A stretch of 18,211 nt of DNA, taken from positions 1 through 18,211 of the forward strand of contig CAJWLW010000070.1 in the NCBI GenBank assembly GCA_913042885.1, given 5' to 3'. Both the position numbers and the translations under genes were made by a program. Of this stretch, positions 2,905-18,018 are shown one piece after another (positions within the stretch are counted from its first letter, which is position 1; each line of letters begins with the position of its first letter). Source of the stretch: an uncultured Lentisphaeria bacterium. GTDB lineage: Bacteria; Verrucomicrobiota; Lentisphaeria; JABSQK01; CAJWLW01. The notes beneath the pieces were generated by a model, which was not told where the DNA came from, made no database searches, and worked only from the letters and a program-made list of their open reading frames with translations.

Positions 2905-3150
2905 GTCGATCTCGTTTGGGTTAATGCCGTTCGTGAAGTCCAGAAGCCTGGGAGCTTGTACAGACAGTGCTGTGAAACTGGTTATTTTTCAAGTCACAGT
3001 CCGTCGGGACACCTGGGGGCAGTCCCTGAAGGCGGACACCGTGCTTCTGGCATCTTCAGCGGCGAACGCATGTCGGCAAGCCGCGGTTTTCCCTGGCGCC
3101 ACCGACCTGCTGGACGCCGATCCAGGTGTCCCGGCCGAGCGCGCCGATAT
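2905..3150. other. Intergenic stretch with degraded sequence
   Basis: No intact gene is visible. The plus strand has open frames with no recognisable motif that lead into the short-chain dehydrogenase fragment at 3151. CTGTGA and TCACAG arms at 2971-3000 can pair across 18 bases, but they do not form a standard operator. Confidence 0.4.
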
Positions 3151-3236
3151 GTCCCCGCAGACATCCGCGACGAGCCGGCCGTGGCGGGACTGATGGACGG
3201 ACTGGATTCGCTGGACGTGCTGGTCAATAACGCGGC
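3151..3236 (+). pseudogene. Short-chain dehydrogenase/reductase (SDR) fragment
   Basis: About 28 codons read VPADIRDEPAVAGLMDGL and then DSLDVLVNNA. This is the SDR segment running from the aspartate that contacts the adenine ring to the NNAG motif. The upstream Gly-rich cofactor motif and the downstream YxxxK catalytic motif are absent. At about 3232 the frame passes straight into the 17.9 kb repeat (AAHGVEVWAL), so this is a chimeric junction, not a working gene. The shared bases at the junction (GCGG) suggest joining at a short homology. Assignment rests on a short but characteristic stretch. Confidence 0.6.
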
Positions 3237-3297
3237 GCACGGCGTCGAGGTATGGGCCTTAACAGCGGAGCGGCAGTAATGAAAACACCGTGGGGAT
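3232..3297 (+). repeat. Second fragment of the dispersed repeat (copy of 17947-18016)
   Basis: The first 26 bases are identical to 17947-17972. After a diverged stretch, a shared ATGAAAAC and TGGGGAT follow. In both places the protein frame reads AAHGVEVWAL and then leads into an ATGAAAAC start-like sequence. Together with 51-104, the window holds two separate pieces of what is one continuous unit at 17.85-18.02 kb. Confidence 0.75.
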
Positions 3298-4128: not shown

Positions 4129-4393
4129 TTGGACTCCGGTTCCTACGGACTCCGCTTCGGATGTATTGGCTGCGGCGGTATCGGGCGTGTTCATGTGCAC
4201 AACAGCCAGTTCGTACCGGGAACGACGGTGACAGCTTTCGCCGATATCGACCGGGCCAGGGGCGGAGACGTTTTGTGACACGTTTGGCGGGCGATATGCC
4301 ACCACCGATGCGCAGGATATTTTCCAGGATCCGGACCTCGATGCGGTACTCATCCACTTCCTTCATGGCTTCCCAACATGCTTGACACCATAA
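4129..4393 (+). pseudogene. Gfo/Idh/MocA-family oxidoreductase, N-terminal remnant
   Basis: Two frames together give the N-terminal NAD-binding fold of this family. The first has LRFGCIGCGGIGRVHVHN with the GxGxxG dinucleotide motif and then VTAFADID, the strand ending in the adenine-side acid. It stops at a TGA (4276-4278). The next frame continues with GGRYATTDAQDIFQDPDLDA and VLIH. A one-base shift near 4270 explains the break. The family's EKP motif and substrate domain are missing because the next gene begins at 4378. Such enzymes oxidise sugars or sugar derivatives with NAD(P). There is no start codon with a ribosome site. Confidence 0.75.
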
Positions 4394-5964
4394 AGGGCGC
4401 CCTGATCGTCTCCTGCCAGGCCGAATCGGGGTTTCCGCTGAACACCCCCGACCGCCTGGCGGCGCTGGCGGAGACCGCGATCATGGGCGGAGCCCGTGGC
4501 ATCCGCGCCAGCGGCCCGGAAAACATCATGGCCATCCGCGAACGGGTGTCCGTACCCGTGATCGGGATCTACAAGAAGGAATATCCGGGTTCCGAGGTCA
4601 TCATCACCCCGACCATGGATGAAGTCGAGGCTGTCGTCGCTGCAGGCGCAACGATCCTCGCCCTCGATGCCACCCGTCGAAGGCGCCCGAATGGATGCAG
4701 CTTTGCGGATCTCATGGGCGCTGTTCGCAGTCGGTTCGACATCCCGGTGATGGCCGACATCTCAACGCTCGAAGAAGGTGTGACTGCGGCGGCAAACGGC
4801 GTCGACATTCTGGCCCCGACTCTGGCCGGCTATACCTCATACAGTCGGCAACTGGTCGGGCCTGGGCCCGACCTGCAGTTGACGAAAGAACTCGTCCGCC
4901 TCGGTGTTCCCGTCATCGCCGAAGGCCGGCTGCAGACTCCGCAGGATGTCCGCGCGGCATTCGCTGCCGGTGTTCACGCGGTGGTGGTGGGGTCGATGAT
5001 CACCCGGCCGCATCTCATCACCCGGCACTTCCTGACCGGGGTACCCAAACCCAACACGCCGATCGGTGCCATTGACATCGGCGGCACCAAGATTGCCGCT
5101 GCGATATCGGCAGGCGTCGACTGGGTGGATCGTGAGAGGGCGCCGACACCTGCCGACGCTGACGCTGTGGTGAATACCGCCATCGACCTGCTGCAGCGGC
5201 TGATCCACCGCAACCGCATCGGGTCCCTGGCAGCAATCGGTGTTTCAACGGGTGGTGGGGTTGACCACGAGGGACGCATCGCATCGGCAACAGACATCAT
5301 GCCTGGTTTCGCGGGGACCGATCTGCGGACTGCGGTAGCCGATGCCTTCGGCGTGCCTGTCGGCGTCATGAACGACGGGCACGCAGCGGCACTGGCCGAG
5401 GCCGAAATCGGGGCCGGCAGCGGGTATGCCACGGTACTGGGCTTAACCATCGGCACCGGTCTGGGCGGCGGTATTGTCCATCACGGCGAACTGTACCGGG
5501 GAGGTTCCGGCCTGGCAGGCAGTGTCGGACACCTGATCATTGAACCGGGGGGACGCCCATGCAGCTGCGGCGGCACTGGCTGCGCAGAGGCCTATGTCAG
5601 CGGCGGCGGTCTGTTGCAGACATATAACGAAGCCGCGACGACTGCCGTGACGACAGCGACAGCGGTCGCCGAACTGGCGGCGGCCGGTGACGAGACTGCG
5701 GTACGTGCTGTTGCCGAAACGGGCCGCCGCCTCGGCCAGGCTATTGCTGCGGCAGCGGCGACGCTCGATCCCGACGTGGTGGTCGCAGGAGGAAGCGTGG
5801 CCACCCTGGGTGAGCCGCTGCTTGGGCCGGCTCGGGAGTTTCTGGCTGCAAACGGCTTTGCTGCCATTGCGAGCATTCCGATCCTCCCCGCCAGGCACGG
5901 CGCCGACGCCAGCCTGACCGGCGCGGCCCTCTTGGCAACACGGCTTGCCTGCGTTGACCAATGA
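4378..5964 (+). CDS. N-acetylmannosamine-6-phosphate 2-epimerase fused to ROK-family kinase
   Basis: A 528-residue bifunctional protein. Residues 1 to about 222 are a NanE-type barrel converting ManNAc-6-P to GlcNAc-6-P: GALIVSCQAESGFPL, catalytic lysine in GIYKKEYPGS (Lys66), ADIST (Asp127), and the acid in IAEGRLQTP (Glu182). Residues 229-525 are a ROK sugar kinase, presumably for ManNAc: AIDIGGTKIA (phosphate loop), catalytic Asp333 in MNDGHAAA, and a full zinc site with His385 plus the CSCGGTGC cysteines 395, 397 and 402. The linker is short (about residues 222-229). The two domains do successive steps, kinase then epimerase, of sialic acid or ManNAc breakdown. The gene starts inside the tail of the Gfo/Idh/MocA remnant and has no convincing ribosome site, so its original leader may be lost. 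The NanE N-terminus looks complete. Kinase substrate is inferred from the fusion partner. Confidence 0.88.
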   Translation: MLDTIKGALIVSCQAESGFPLNTPDRLAALAETAIMGGARGIRASGPENIMAIRERVSVPVIGIYKKEYPGSEVIITPTMDEVEAVVAAGATILALDATRRRRPNGCSFADLMGAVRSRFDIPVMADISTLEEGVTAAANGVDILAPTLAGYTSYSRQLVGPGPDLQLTKELVRLGVPVIAEGRLQTPQDVRAAFAAGVHAVVVGSMITRPHLITRHFLTGVPKPNTPIGAIDIGGTKIAAAISAGVDWVDRERAPTPADADAVVNTAIDLLQRLIHRNRIGSLAAIGVSTGGGVDHEGRIASATDIMPGFAGTDLRTAVADAFGVPVGVMNDGHAAALAEAEIGAGSGYATVLGLTIGTGLGGGIVHHGELYRGGSGLAGSVGHLIIEPGGRPCSCGGTGCAEAYVSGGGLLQTYNEAATTAVTTATAVAELAAAGDETAVRAVAETGRRLGQAIAAAAATLDPDVVVAGGSVATLGEPLLGPAREFLAANGFAAIASIPILPARHGADASLTGAALLATRLACVDQ

Positions 5965-7086: not shown

Positions 7087-7484
7087 CTATCTTCCCCGAG
7101 CCACCTGCTCTGGATCTCTTTCCTCAATTTCAGAAAAAAACGTCGCTCCACCCAGCTCCATAATTCGTTGGTAGCCTGCGTTGAAGTCGGCCACATCGAC
7201 GATGCCGTTTTTCATGAGCGCTTCATACACTGTGACGACAGCGTCAATTGCACTCACGAGTCCGACCAGGGGATAGATTACGATTTGAAATCCCAACTCC
7301 TTCAGGACGTCAACATGCACTTCGTCACCGTCCAGGTGTCGAAGGCCGGCGGTCCACAGGAGAGGCTTGTCCGGGATGGCCTCGCGTACCTGCTTCGCCT
7401 CCTCAAGGCTGCTCACAAGAGTCATGATGACATCGGCGCCGGCTTCCGAATACATCGCCAGTCGCTCCAATACCTCATCCGAGT
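7087..7484 (-). pseudogene. PEP mutase / isocitrate lyase family protein, C-terminal half
   Basis: About 132 codons match the second half of this barrel family, whose members make or break C-C or P-C bonds next to a carboxylate (carboxyphosphonoenolpyruvate mutase, methylisocitrate lyase, oxaloacetate hydrolase). Seen: RLAMYSEAGADVIMTLV, then KPLLWTAGL, then ELGFQIVIYPLVGLVSAIDAV, the typical late strand and helix. Full members have about 280-300 residues. The first half, with the KxxC-type active-site loop and metal-binding acids, is missing. The gene is cut exactly where the terminal repeat begins (7485), and the open frame runs on into the repeat as foreign residues. It therefore cannot work as an enzyme, though a transcript could still reach the dehydrogenase downstream. 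Confidence 0.82.
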
Positions 7485-7668
7485 TGATAAGAAACCGCTT
7501 TTCGAAACTGCTGAAGCATACTGCGAGGGGGGGGGCATGCAAACTGAAACGGGGTCAATCCCGTCCCTTATCCACTGCGAGTGGCAGTCGCTTACTGGCG
7601 TGTACTTCGTTGCTGCCCTGGTCGTGCTTTGTCACCTCCGGCCGGGACCGTCGCAAGCGGACGACAGG
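7485..7668 (+). repeat. Terminal-repeat element, copy A (partial)
   Basis: It begins TGATAAGAAACCGCTTTTCG, very close to the ends at 9224 and 9670 (inverted). Homology to 9224-9410 continues beyond the terminal repeat to about 7668, with roughly four fifths of positions alike, then stops. No inverted partner end is found between here and 9224, so this is a one-ended or truncated copy. Its outer end cuts the PEP mutase-family gene. Confidence 0.8.
7515..7542 (-). promoter_or_regulatory. Outward promoter-like hexamers in copy A
   Basis: On the minus strand TTGCAT (7542-7537), 16 bases including a run of nine C, then TATGCT (7520-7515), pointing at the truncated PEP mutase gene and the dehydrogenase. 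The -10 matches four of six consensus positions and the -35 three of six. Support comes from the same layout in the other copies. Confidence 0.3.
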
Positions 7669-7845
7669 GGGTGCGAGGTATTCGAGGGTCGGGCCGCCGT
7701 GCGAGACGGTCATGCCGTCGTTGGTGACGGGTCGGGGTTCGGCGGGCGCGTGGTCGAGAGCGTCCTGCGGCGACATCCCTTCGCCGATCGGCACCCGGAT
7801 CTGTTCACCGAGGGATAGGAGCCGAGGCAGGCGTGATCGGCGCCT
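7669..7845 (-). other. Unrecognised open stretch after the sialidase stop codon
   Basis: Directly after the sialidase TGA, the same minus-strand frame stays open through this stretch and on into copy A, stopping at about 7555. It reads for example GEQIRVPIGEGMSPQDALDH and TNDGMTVSHGGPTLEYLAPP. The composition is protein-like, but I recognise no family and there is no start with a ribosome site. It may be the remnant of another gene that copy A has cut. Confidence 0.3.
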
Positions 7846-9183
7846 TCACCCGCGCAGGTAGTCCAGGGGGATCGTTCTAACCCTCGTCCCCGTCATGCTG
7901 ACGCCGCAGGTTCCCCAGCCGTAGTCGTAGACGAAGACGGCCTCGTCGCCGACGAACTGCACGTCGGGATAGGCGATCCGCAGGGGGCCGGGCGCGCGAT
8001 GGTAGCGGTCGGTGTCGGAAGGTTGGTAGTACCAGTAGTCCTCGCGTTGCTCGATGATCTCGTGCCAGTCCGCCGGCAGCGGCGGGATGACCGTCTCGTC
8101 GTCGAGCGACTCGAGGTTCCGCAAGCTCTCCCACGTCCGGCCCTCGTCCCGCGAGATCGCGCACGAGAGGCGGTGCCGGTGCAGGCCCTTGAGAATCTCG
8201 CCGCGCGACCCCTGGTTCCAGACCATCAGGATCTCGCCGGTCGGCATCCGGCGCAGGCAGGCGGGGGTGGCGGTGCTGGCGATCTGAAGGACCGGCTCAG
8301 GCCGTTTCCAGGTGAGGCCGAGGTCGTCGCTGAAGGATTGATAGCGCCGGCCGTGCTCGCTGCGCAGGTCCATGAGCAGGCGCCCGTCGCGCAGCGGCAG
8401 GACCGCCGGTTCGCCGAGGGCGTAGCAGACGCGGTAGCGGCACACGAAAAGTTCGCTGAGGCTGTGCTGCCACGTCCGGCCTTCGTCGTCGCTGACCATG
8501 ACGAAGCTGAACGACAGGTGGTTGTCGGCTTCGCTGGCGACGGTCTCGTCGAAGGAGATCCAGCGGTACGACGGAGCCAGGATGCGGCCGGAGTCGAGCA
8601 CGAGCGCGTGTCCGGCGCAGCACATGGCATGCTGGGAGAACACGACGACCGGGGCCGACCAGGTGCGGCCCTCGTCGCTGCTGGAGCGGAACATCATTCC
8701 CGAGCCGGCGTCACGGGTGGGATGGCCCTGGGGGAAGTGCTCGTGATCGTTATAGACCATGCCCAGGCGGCCGCTGTTCATGCGGAAGACCGACTGGTGG
8801 TTGCCTTTGACCCGCGCGCCCGCCGCGTCGCGCATCTCCCAAGGCTCGCTCCAGGTGCGGCCGGCATCGGCCGACGAGCGCATCGTCAGGTAGATGTAAT
8901 CGCGCTGCGGCGCGGTGTTGACGGTGGAAAGATCGGCCTCGCCGGTCGGCGCGTCGTTGCTCCGCGAAGGCGTCTGTGGCGGCTTGGCGACGTATGCGCC
9001 CGGGTCCAGGTGACCCGCCAGCTCGTACTCGAAGCCGATCACGTAGAGCTCGCGCTCGGTCGGTCCCGGCGTCAGCGTCATTTCGTAGGTGACCGGATTG
9101 CGCGGCTCGATGATCATCGAGCTGGGGAAGCGATCGACTTCAAGGGGGCAGCCGGTTGCGGCGGCTTTCTCGTGGGTCGTCAT
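7846..9183 (-). CDS. Sialidase-like protein with five Asp-box (BNR) repeats
   Basis: A predicted six-bladed propeller of 445 residues. Five Asp boxes (SxDxGxTW) are visible at about 103-111 (SSADAGRTW), 168-175, 231-238, 284-292 (SFSDDLGLTW) and 344-351, spaced as in exo-alpha-sialidases. The family removes terminal sialic acid or related sugars from glycans. The presence of a ManNAc-6-P epimerase/kinase fusion nearby fits that role, but Asp boxes also occur in non-sialidase propellers. No signal peptide is seen, so the enzyme would act in the cytoplasm or its leader has been lost. I start it at ATG9183, 41 bp from the end of the terminal-repeat element; the open frame continues upstream into that element, but those residues are not part of the family. 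A promoter-like site inside the element points at this gene. Confidence 0.8.
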   Translation of the reverse strand: MTTHEKAAATGCPLEVDRFPSSMIIEPRNPVTYEMTLTPGPTERELYVIGFEYELAGHLDPGAYVAKPPQTPSRSNDAPTGEADLSTVNTAPQRDYIYLTMRSSADAGRTWSEPWEMRDAAGARVKGNHQSVFRMNSGRLGMVYNDHEHFPQGHPTRDAGSGMMFRSSSDEGRTWSAPVVVFSQHAMCCAGHALVLDSGRILAPSYRWISFDETVASEADNHLSFSFVMVSDDEGRTWQHSLSELFVCRYRVCYALGEPAVLPLRDGRLLMDLRSEHGRRYQSFSDDLGLTWKRPEPVLQIASTATPACLRRMPTGEILMVWNQGSRGEILKGLHRHRLSCAISRDEGRTWESLRNLESLDDETVIPPLPADWHEIIEQREDYWYYQPSDTDRYHRAPGPLRIAYPDVQFVGDEAVFVYDYGWGTCGVSMTGTRVRTIPLDYLRG

Positions 9184-9223
9184 CTGGGTCCACCGACGCG
9201 GGTCTTGCCGATCCGCGGTTTTT

Positions 9224-9286
9224 TGATAGGAAATTGCTTTTCGGAACTTTTGAATCATATCGCGAGGGGAGTTGCTATGCAAGCTG
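9224..9286 (+). repeat. Left inverted terminal repeat (copy B)
   Basis: Ends TGATAGGAAATTGCTTTTCG outward. It is 86 percent identical to the inverted right end at 9608-9670 and clearly related to copies A and D. Read inward it encodes DRKLLFGTFESYREG; the other copies give DKKPLFETAEAYCEG and DRKPLFGTFEAYCEG, a handy signature for searching. Confidence 0.85.
9255..9283 (-). promoter_or_regulatory. Outward promoter-like hexamers in copy B, facing the sialidase gene
   Basis: On the minus strand TTGCAT (9283-9278), 17 bases, TATGAT (9260-9255). The -10 matches five of six consensus positions and the spacing is optimal. A transcript would begin near 9248 and run out of the element into the sialidase-like gene, whose start is 72 bp from the -10. 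Confidence 0.42.
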
Positions 9287-9483
9287 TAACCGGTTCGATC
9301 CTGCCTCTTATGCACTGCGAGTCGTAGTTGCTCACTGGCGTGTACCTCGTTGCCGCCCTGGTCGTGCTTTGTCACCTCCGACAGTGACCGTCGCAACCGG
9401 ACGACAAGCACGGGAGCGTTGTCAGCGTCTGAAGGGACAGGGGTATGTTCTGTCGCTGCTGGGCTGGCGGGTTCGATAGGCGC

Positions 9484-9603
9484 GTCGGCCTCGAGCGCCT
9501 CCCGAGCCTGCTCAGCCTGCCAGGGCTGAATCCTCTCATCCTCCGCCAACATGGCAAGGAAATGCTCGATCTCCGCTCGGGGATGCCACCGCAACGTTCC
9601 ACC
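9484..9603 (-). pseudogene. Possible tyrosine-recombinase (integron-integrase-like) N-terminal fragment
   Basis: On the minus strand this reads RWHPRAEIEHFLAMLAEDER followed by IQPWQAEQAREALEAD. An FLxxLAxxxRIxPWQxxQAxxAL pattern resembles the N-terminal SAM-like DNA-binding domain of integron-type and phage-type tyrosine recombinases. It is followed by a Pro/Ala-rich stretch; no catalytic R-H-R-Y region is found. It lies wholly inside the 447-bp element, as expected for the remains of the element's former recombinase gene. The resemblance is from memory of the family and covers only about 36 residues. Confidence 0.35.
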
Positions 9604-9607
9604 CGTT

Positions 9608-9670
9608 CAGTTTGCATGCCAGCTCCCCTCGCAGTATGCTTCAAAAGTTCCGAAAAGCGGTTTCCTATCA
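9608..9670 (-). repeat. Right inverted terminal repeat (copy C)
   Basis: Inverted partner of 9224-9286, ending in TTTCCTATCA on the plus strand. It is closest in sequence to copy A at 7485. Confidence 0.85.
9612..9640 (+). promoter_or_regulatory. Outward promoter-like hexamers in copy C
   Basis: TTGCAT, 17 bases, TATGCT, pointing out of the element toward the flavoprotein gene at 9822. The -35 and -10 are weak matches but keep the position and spacing seen in the other terminal repeats. Confidence 0.32.
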
Positions 9671-13487: not shown

Positions 13488-13850
13488 TTGATCATCCCAA
13501 CAAAGAAACACGGTACCGCAGTTCCAGCCCCAAGGTCTTTGTTCGGTGGTGGGCGTCTTCGGTTGCGCGGCAACTGTCATTGCCACTCCACCTTTTCCGA
13601 TGGCACCTATTCCGCTGAAGAAACCGTTGCCCGCTATCGAGACGCCGGCTACGATTTTCTCTATCTCACCGAGCATTGTGCTAAGCTCACCTATGGTAAG
13701 TTCCCGAATTTTGACGCACTTGACTCTCCTGACTTCAAGGTGCTTCCGGGCGTTGAGTACCGCGCCGCAAACTGCAGGAAGCCTATATCCGCCCTGCTGG
13801 CGAGGCTTTCAAGAAAGACAGCGGCTTGTCGACGTGTTTACGCCTTTTGA
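13488..13850 (+). pseudogene. PHP-domain protein, N-terminal remnant
   Basis: The frame contains GNCHCHSTFSDGTYSAEETV and then RYRDAGYDFLYLTEH, the first two metal-binding motifs of PHP phosphoesterase-type domains (HxH, then TEH in place of the usual TDH), followed by KVLPGVEYR. Full PHP proteins of this kind have 250 or more residues and further histidines and a final D-x-H motif, which are missing. After about 13767 the sequence no longer resembles the family, so the gene has lost its middle and end. There is no good start: the frame opens at a TTG without a ribosome site. Proteins of this form are common in PVC bacteria and are of unclear function. Confidence 0.7.
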
Positions 13851-13983
13851 GTCGCACGTGTACGAGCTGCAGCCCGGTAGAGATGAATGATGGGAGCGAG
13901 TGCGATATCGCACCGGGCGATAATACTCGGCTACGCCTCCCACACTGCTTACACGCCGTAAACAATGCGCGAAGCCCTGGTCT
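13851..13983. other. Junction region between PHP remnant and copy D
   Basis: No gene is visible. It contains the 12-bp palindrome TGCGATATCGCA (about 13898-13909) within a longer symmetric stretch. It may belong to the interior of element copy D, but it shows no clear likeness to the interiors of copies A or B-C. Confidence 0.35.
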
Positions 13984-14046
13984 CGACTCGCATTCCACCA
14001 GGCCTCGCAGTATCGTTCAAGAGTTCCCGAAAGCAATTCCCTATCA
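13984..14046 (-). repeat. Terminal repeat, copy D (right end only)
   Basis: Ends in CCCTATCA on the plus strand, the same outer end as copy C. The inward reading gives DRELLSGTLERYCEAWWNA, corresponding to DRKPLFGTFEAYCEGSWHA in copy C. It is the most diverged copy. No left partner was found upstream. Its outer end lies 33 bp before the GH39 start codon. Confidence 0.72.
13988..14016 (+). promoter_or_regulatory. Outward promoter-like hexamers in copy D
   Basis: TCGCAT, 17 bases, TATCGT, pointing at the GH39 gene 63 bp away. Individually weak; notable because the spacing equals that of copies B and C. Confidence 0.25.
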
Positions 14047-16170: not shown

Positions 16171-16395
16171 GGATTCCACCGAAAGATGTTGATTTCGAAA
16201 AGCGCTGAACCTACCCGCCTGTCCCTCCCCCCAATGCCCGCTTTTTTCCTTCCTCACGCTCCCGGCTCATATCGACCTCACTCCTTGAATATGACAGAAC
16301 CCACCGCCAAACCTTGCAGGTTGGAAGATTTCACCCCGTGCTTTTTTTATCAAGTCTCTTTTTTTGCGTTCCCGCCACCTGCACCTACAGGTCGC
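16171..16395. other. Intergenic region between two remnants
   Basis: No gene or clear signal. Runs of T (16342-16348, 16355-16361) and C occur. The upstream part of the minus-strand remnant would have its promoter here, but none stands out. Confidence 0.4.
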
Positions 16396-16696
16396 CCCCG
16401 TGAACCACCCATTGGCTCACCACACACTGACGGATGGGAAGGAGAAGTACATCCGGTTCGCGGTCGATGGTAGAGAGCAATTATTCCGGCTGCCGGATGA
16501 CCCCCACGAGTTGCATGACCTGTCCCATCGACCGGAAGGGGCAGACAGGATTACGTATTGGCGAAACGAGCTCATCGAGCGACTGCTCGGCAGCCCGGAG
16601 GCGTTCACCGACGGACAGCGACTCATTGCCGGGCGTCCGTTTCCACCTCGGCGCCAACCAGGCACTATAGCGGACGCGGACAAGCCGTGCCGTTGA
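16396..16696 (+). pseudogene. Sulfatase, C-terminal remnant
   Basis: The frame matches the C-terminal domain of type I sulfatases: LTDGKEKYIRFAVDGREQLF, then RLPDDPHELHDLSHRPE, a helical stretch, and LIAGRPFPP near the end. This is the part that follows the last active-site histidine region. The N-terminal three quarters, including the C/S-x-P-x-R sequence converted to formylglycine, is absent. The fragment has a natural stop codon at 16694 but no start. Sulfatases are numerous in PVC bacteria and remove sulfate from marine or host glycans. Confidence 0.8.
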
Positions 16697-17852: not shown

Positions 17853-18018
17853 ACCGGGCAGCAGCCGGTACTTGCGTTAATCAGTGCGTACGTCGGATAT
17901 TTTCGGCGCCGAACGGCAGAAGCTCGAATACGTATCGGGGCTGTGTGCGGCGCACGGCGTCGAGGTATGGGCGTTAGTTAGCAGCAAGGAGGGAGTGATG
18001 AAAACGTCATGGGGATAA
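17793..18018 (+). pseudogene. Unrecognised gene fragment holding the full dispersed repeat
   Basis: The frame reads CGSGIVQALHYGDVTGQQPV and LALISAYV. After a one-base insertion near 17895 (absent in the copy at 51-104) it goes on as DIFGAERQKLEYVSGLC and AAHGVEVWALVSSKEGV, then MKTSWG and a stop at 18016-18018. I do not know the family. It is the only place where both repeat pieces (51-104 and 3232-3297) stand together, so it is the best guide to the parent sequence. AAGGAGGG precedes the ATG at 17998, but that frame closes after six codons. Confidence 0.5.

Follow-up and report, generated by a model that had tools for sequence, protein, structure and literature searches.

A probable decayed MITE-like element with 63-bp inverted ends and its partial relatives in a contig of an uncultured Lentisphaeria bacterium

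The bacterial MITEs that have been described can usually be linked with an IS or transposon family already named. In the window analysed here, a stretch of 18,211 nucleotides of an uncultured Lentisphaeria bacterium, a 447-bp segment with long inverted ends and several related ends nearby raises the question of whether it is such an element, and, if so, what moved it and what became of its relatives. In this paper we describe the anatomy of this segment, compare it with known classes of mobile DNA and weigh the readings that it allows. We favour, with a probability of about 0.7, a transposable element that is decayed and non-autonomous, has terminal inverted repeats at its boundaries, resembles a MITE and is unassigned to any family; its mobility is read from anatomy alone. 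The window holds one two-ended copy (element A, 9224-9670), one half-copy (B) and one isolated end (C), which lie among the following features, each given with the evidence that located it:

7087-7484, minus strand: PEP-mutase/isocitrate-lyase-type gene, C-terminal part only, truncated at the outer border of half-copy B (Pfam, PDB 3fa3)
7485-7666, plus strand: half-copy B, one end and the left interior block, with similarity ending at 7666 (blastn, nhmmer profile)
7846-9182, minus strand: BNR/sialidase-like gene between half-copy B and element A, a passenger or a bystander (Pfam on the open reading frame 7846-9594; start at 9182 chosen by reading)
9224-9286, plus strand: left terminal inverted repeat of element A, A-L (arm pairing, alignment, nhmmer profile, edge comparison)
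9287-9406, plus strand: left interior block, also present in half-copy B (blastn, fold and codon-phase checks)
9407-9607, minus strand: right interior block, single copy (window search: apart from the block itself, the best E is 0.076)
9490-9573, minus strand: some 28-29 codons whose translation is similar to the N-terminal extension found in integron-integrase-like tyrosine recombinases (genome frame search, family profile, 120 family members)
9608-9670, minus strand: right terminal inverted repeat of element A, A-R (arm pairing, alignment, nhmmer profile, edge comparison)
13575-13769, plus strand: PHP-domain fragment, profile positions 2-66 of 164 (Pfam)
13979-14046, minus strand: single end C, in the orientation of the right end and the most diverged (alignment, nhmmer profile)

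The inverted ends reported by the first-pass annotation were recovered on re-alignment, with agreement at 54 of 63 positions; the two arms are 86% complementary over 63 nt and stand 321 nt apart. Related ends had also been placed at 7485, in the orientation of the left end, and at 14046, in that of the right end, and both are there. The copy at 7485 had been taken for a single end, and an end does lie there, but the copy is longer, a half-copy of 182 bp, which blastn aligns to the left part of element A at 82.6% over 184 aligned nt (7484-7666 against 9223-9406). All four ends fall inside 6.6 kb, as the earlier figure of under 7 kb implied, and the outer heptamer TGATAGG stands in three of them, with the one-base variant TGATAAG at 7485, again as described. 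A degenerate 23-base pattern, itself derived from these ends, has four exact matches in the window and none in 200 dinucleotide shuffles, and an nhmmer profile built from the four ends scores them at 66-75 bits, the next match in the window reaching 3.3 bits (E=1.2).

The outer edge of these repeats is sharp. Invariant columns across all four ends make up 31 of the 44 positions that run inward from the edge (positions 1-44) and none of the 20 flanking positions outside it, a pattern that fits an element end rather than a coding repeat. End C agrees with the right arm at 46 of 63 positions and is clearly conserved only over the outer ~44-57 nt. A protein-coding gene family, which had been named beforehand as the finding that would overturn the proposal, was looked for and rejected on codon-phase counts, since the differences are spread as 6/5/8 between A and B and as 3/4/2 between A-L and A-R, with no phase bias. 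A structured RNA was likewise tried and rejected, five interior pieces folding no better than shuffles (z -0.83 to 0.65), and Rfam gave no match in the window.

Could the repeats have arisen with no mobile element at all, whether through segmental duplication and rearrangement as the genome decayed or through an error of assembly? The window does hold other pieces that would suit such a history, namely the truncated genes of PEP-mutase type and PHP type, along with a second set of repeats. Four ends that share one outer boundary, lie in unrelated flanks and face both ways speak against it, and a divergence of 13-25% among the ends argues against an assembly artefact; we regard this as the least probable of the alternatives considered. 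The mobile-element reading is supported by four ends in both orientations, their common sharp boundary and a gene that breaks exactly at one of them.

That gene is the PEP-mutase-type one, whose break coincides exactly with the outer edge of half-copy B. Residues 22-116 of its open reading frame match residues 170-264 of PDB 3fa3 (302 aa) and the Pfam alignment starts at profile position 157 of 240, while the first ~19-20 residues are encoded by the end of half-copy B. Element A sits between two divergent genes and encodes the first 124 residues of the frame 7846-9594. The PHP-domain fragment lies ~0.2 kb inside end C, its own break is not at that end, and coding-looking scraps run from the fragment up to 14046.

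Several further observations concern the surroundings. The second repeat set pairs 51-104 with 17853-17907 (94.5%) and 3232-3297 with 17947-18016 (78.6%), which suggests that 17853-18016 may be a fuller copy and the others partial ones. At 3130-3276 (plus strand) an internal section of short-chain dehydrogenases is matched weakly (E 0.029), the match ending beside the repeat piece at 3232; at 16364-16693 (plus strand) a sulfohydrolase family is matched weakly in its C-terminal part (E 0.26), perhaps another gene piece. NanE (N-acetylmannosamine-6-phosphate epimerase) and a ROK kinase share one frame (4378-5964, plus strand) near the sialidase-like gene; the two are adjacent in two genomes of a Planctomycetota-centred sample at 38-41% identity, and among the matches listed from 149 genomes the best identity of the window's NanE-ROK protein is 43%. 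At E<=1e-90 the window's dehydrogenase-like protein is matched in 2 of 294 genomes, at 60% identity in one, and a search for NanE-ROK at E<=1e-60 in nine genomes of the order to which that one belongs, run without a positive control, found it in none. When 12 window proteins were compared with seven other stretches, only two proteins matched and the gene order was not common to them.

The position of the sialidase-like gene between B and A allows a larger unit to be drawn, in which B and A, or the B end with A-R, would move the gene together as a composite of 2.19 kb (7485-9670). The B end and A-R do agree slightly better (87% over 77 nt) than the arms of A itself (84.5% over 71 nt). Half-copy B has one end only, the B/A-R pair is without a target-site duplication, and a second copy of the unit was not found, so that we hold such a composite to be very unlikely.

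With regard to the class of the element, A resembles a MITE in being short with inverted repeats at its termini and in having, apart from a recombinase-like fragment of ~29 residues, no transposase gene inside. A target-site duplication of 2-14 bp was found neither at element A nor at the other pairs of ends, apart from 2 bp for B/C. We therefore call the element MITE-like and not a proven MITE; decay or rearrangement could have erased a duplication. It also speaks against the mobile-element reading that the window has only one two-ended copy, whose arms already differ by 14%. A tyrosine-recombinase transposon would have a recombinase gene between its ends, where A has the fragment only, and the 38-bp ends and 5- or 6-bp duplications of TIMEs and Tn3 are not seen, as judged from the plasmid search with the 70-bp end and from the flanks of the ends. 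The earlier claim of an undescribed non-autonomous family holds in so far as the segment is best read as a non-autonomous inverted-repeat element that has partial relatives close by, but "undescribed" can mean only that it was not found in the collections searched.

The first-pass annotation had also reported no transposase in the window. No intact one was detected by Pfam in 17 distinct open reading frames or pieces, which are part of those in the window, but the interior of element A does hold something that resembles a recombinase. A frame that reads inward from the right end was first taken for the N-terminal extension of integron-type integrases. In 149 genomes the fragment gave seven matches in six genomes at E<=0.05, the best of them at 54% over 28 aa within a 447-residue frame; its E of 0.0019 applies to one genome, so that ~0.3 chance matches are expected over the 149 searched. 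By eye, the 447-residue frame reads as an integron-integrase-like tyrosine recombinase and the other matched frames do not. Its relatives number 1346 proteins, and among the 120 listed PF13495 is present in all and PF00589 in 118, several being named integron integrase.

With a profile from 107 family members the window frame reached 11.4 bits (E=0.0027), and 30 windows shuffled by permuting blocks of two bases gave no score above 4.2 bits; within the window itself, no part other than the right interior came below E=1. The 49-aa fragment matched 30 of the 120 family members at E<=1e-3, with a best score of 21.2 bits against at most 10.6 for 300 shuffled queries, a comparison that is partly circular because the set was gathered via a match found with the fragment. 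General searches were silent: Pfam and NCBIfam did not detect the fragment and gave no match for the element peptides tried (two and one, respectively), and the stretch encoded by element A, compared with 5.8 billion proteins, gave 628 candidates and none at E<=1. The N-terminal 139 residues of the integrase frame were matched in 3 of 99 genomes at E<=1e-5, and the extension was covered only in the genome from which the frame came.

Was the fragment once part of the element's own enzyme? Element A would then have arisen by internal deletion from a tyrosine-recombinase transposon that carried an integron-integrase-like gene between these inverted ends, the fragment being a leftover. Its place inside A, reading inward from the right end, is what such a history would leave, and insertion by a tyrosine recombinase would accord with the missing target-site duplication. 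The fragment, however, is equivalent to residues ~47-75 of the complete integrase, and the end of the element lies only ~11 codons upstream, with a stop codon in frame; an intact gene start would not fit, and the fragment therefore looks like a piece rather than a shortened working gene. The remaining reading frame of A has no match in the family (best E 2.2), and half-copy B is without the fragment's block. Long inverted repeats spanning the integrase gene were found at none of 31 loci of the wider family, the best being 17 nt at 94% or 30 nt at 80%. This is a weak test: 28 of the 31 lack the extension, their alignment to the family query starting at residue 83 or beyond, three carry it, and in 15 less than 1 kb was available on one side. 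The loci comprised one each from 30 of the 57 matching genomes (299 searched), plus one, and a cross-locus control was discarded as inflated by homologous sequence in common (mean 41, up to 566 bits). In the genome stretch L026, at 1053-1263 and just upstream of the integron-integrase-like gene, inverted repeats of 23 nt (95.7%) and 25 nt (88%) are nested; L042 has them in the same place. A further genome scan, run without a positive control, gave 0 of 144 genomes. We consider descent by internal deletion unlikely, and favour, perhaps four to one and mainly because of the fragment's position, a captured fragment over a remnant of the element's own enzyme. It is distinctly improbable that A is the shrunken remnant of an unseen type of transposon, in which an integron-integrase-like tyrosine recombinase would work on ~60-bp terminal inverted repeats, insert without target duplication and have ends able to pick up neighbours such as the sialidase-like gene.

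Copies outside the contig were sought in viral contigs, genome_contigs, 392 genomes, plasmids, phages and proteins, and none was found. The end pattern and two further patterns gave nothing beyond chance in the viral contigs. In genome_contigs the end pattern had seven exact matches, judged to be chance, with blastn similarity of 23-32 nt in six of the seven and none past end position 34. Among the 392 genomes, a Planctomycetota-centred sample that may not be the host's group, 48 had matches to the element at E<=0.01; the 53 places listed were all short, at 21-68 nt, 48 fell within query positions 224-352, and only one lay in an end (query 9-33), in a genome (G005) that was already a pattern match. 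The 70-bp end gave one 22-nt match (E=6) in 72,556 plasmid records at E<=10, and the half-copy matched 15 plasmid records at that threshold, with E of 2-6 among the matches listed and nothing beyond chance. No copy was found in phages, and a protein search returned 10 candidates and one match, apparently the window's own protein, on a contig of 19,517 bp. An autonomous relative with the same ends was found neither in genome_contigs, by exact pattern, nor in the 392 genomes. As the sampled genomes are not anchored to the host's group, absence from these collections says little, either for or against the other refutation named beforehand, a repeat confined to this window.

In the open-licence PMC literature, as far as the titles and abstract starts of the matches listed go, we recognised no element of this kind. 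The nearest functional analogue is the TIMEs (PMC4133298), whose ends are of Tn3 type and 38 bp long and whose target duplications measure 5 or 6 bp. Like element A, they are described there as short, without a transposase and bounded by inverted ends, and they can form composite-like structures around other DNA; they differ in that the ends here are of 44-63 bp, with no duplication, and plasmid matches are only at chance level. Other bacterial MITEs and integron mobilization units are, like A, non-autonomous and bounded by inverted repeats, and, unlike most of these MITEs, A is assigned to no IS or transposon family. The likeness to integron integrases with an N-terminal extension is confined to ~29 residues that resemble the extension, A having neither the catalytic domain nor an intact gene. 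Integron-like recombinases are grouped among the simple tyrosine recombinases in PMC8138268, where the passages considered describe no terminal-inverted-repeat transposon for that subgroup.

On the favoured reading of a decayed non-autonomous element, an enzyme acting in trans would once have recognised the outer ~44-63 bp, and the copies would have arisen by transposition. Later deletions or rearrangements at the repeats may then account for half-copy B, end C and the truncation of the gene, and the integron-integrase-like fragment would more probably be captured DNA than a relic of the element's own enzyme. Understood in this way, the locus contributes one repeat family of a well-known type and one instance of a gene interrupted precisely at an end of this kind. 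Ideas on how integron-type integrases can move DNA would change only on the discovery of an autonomous copy that encodes a tyrosine recombinase.
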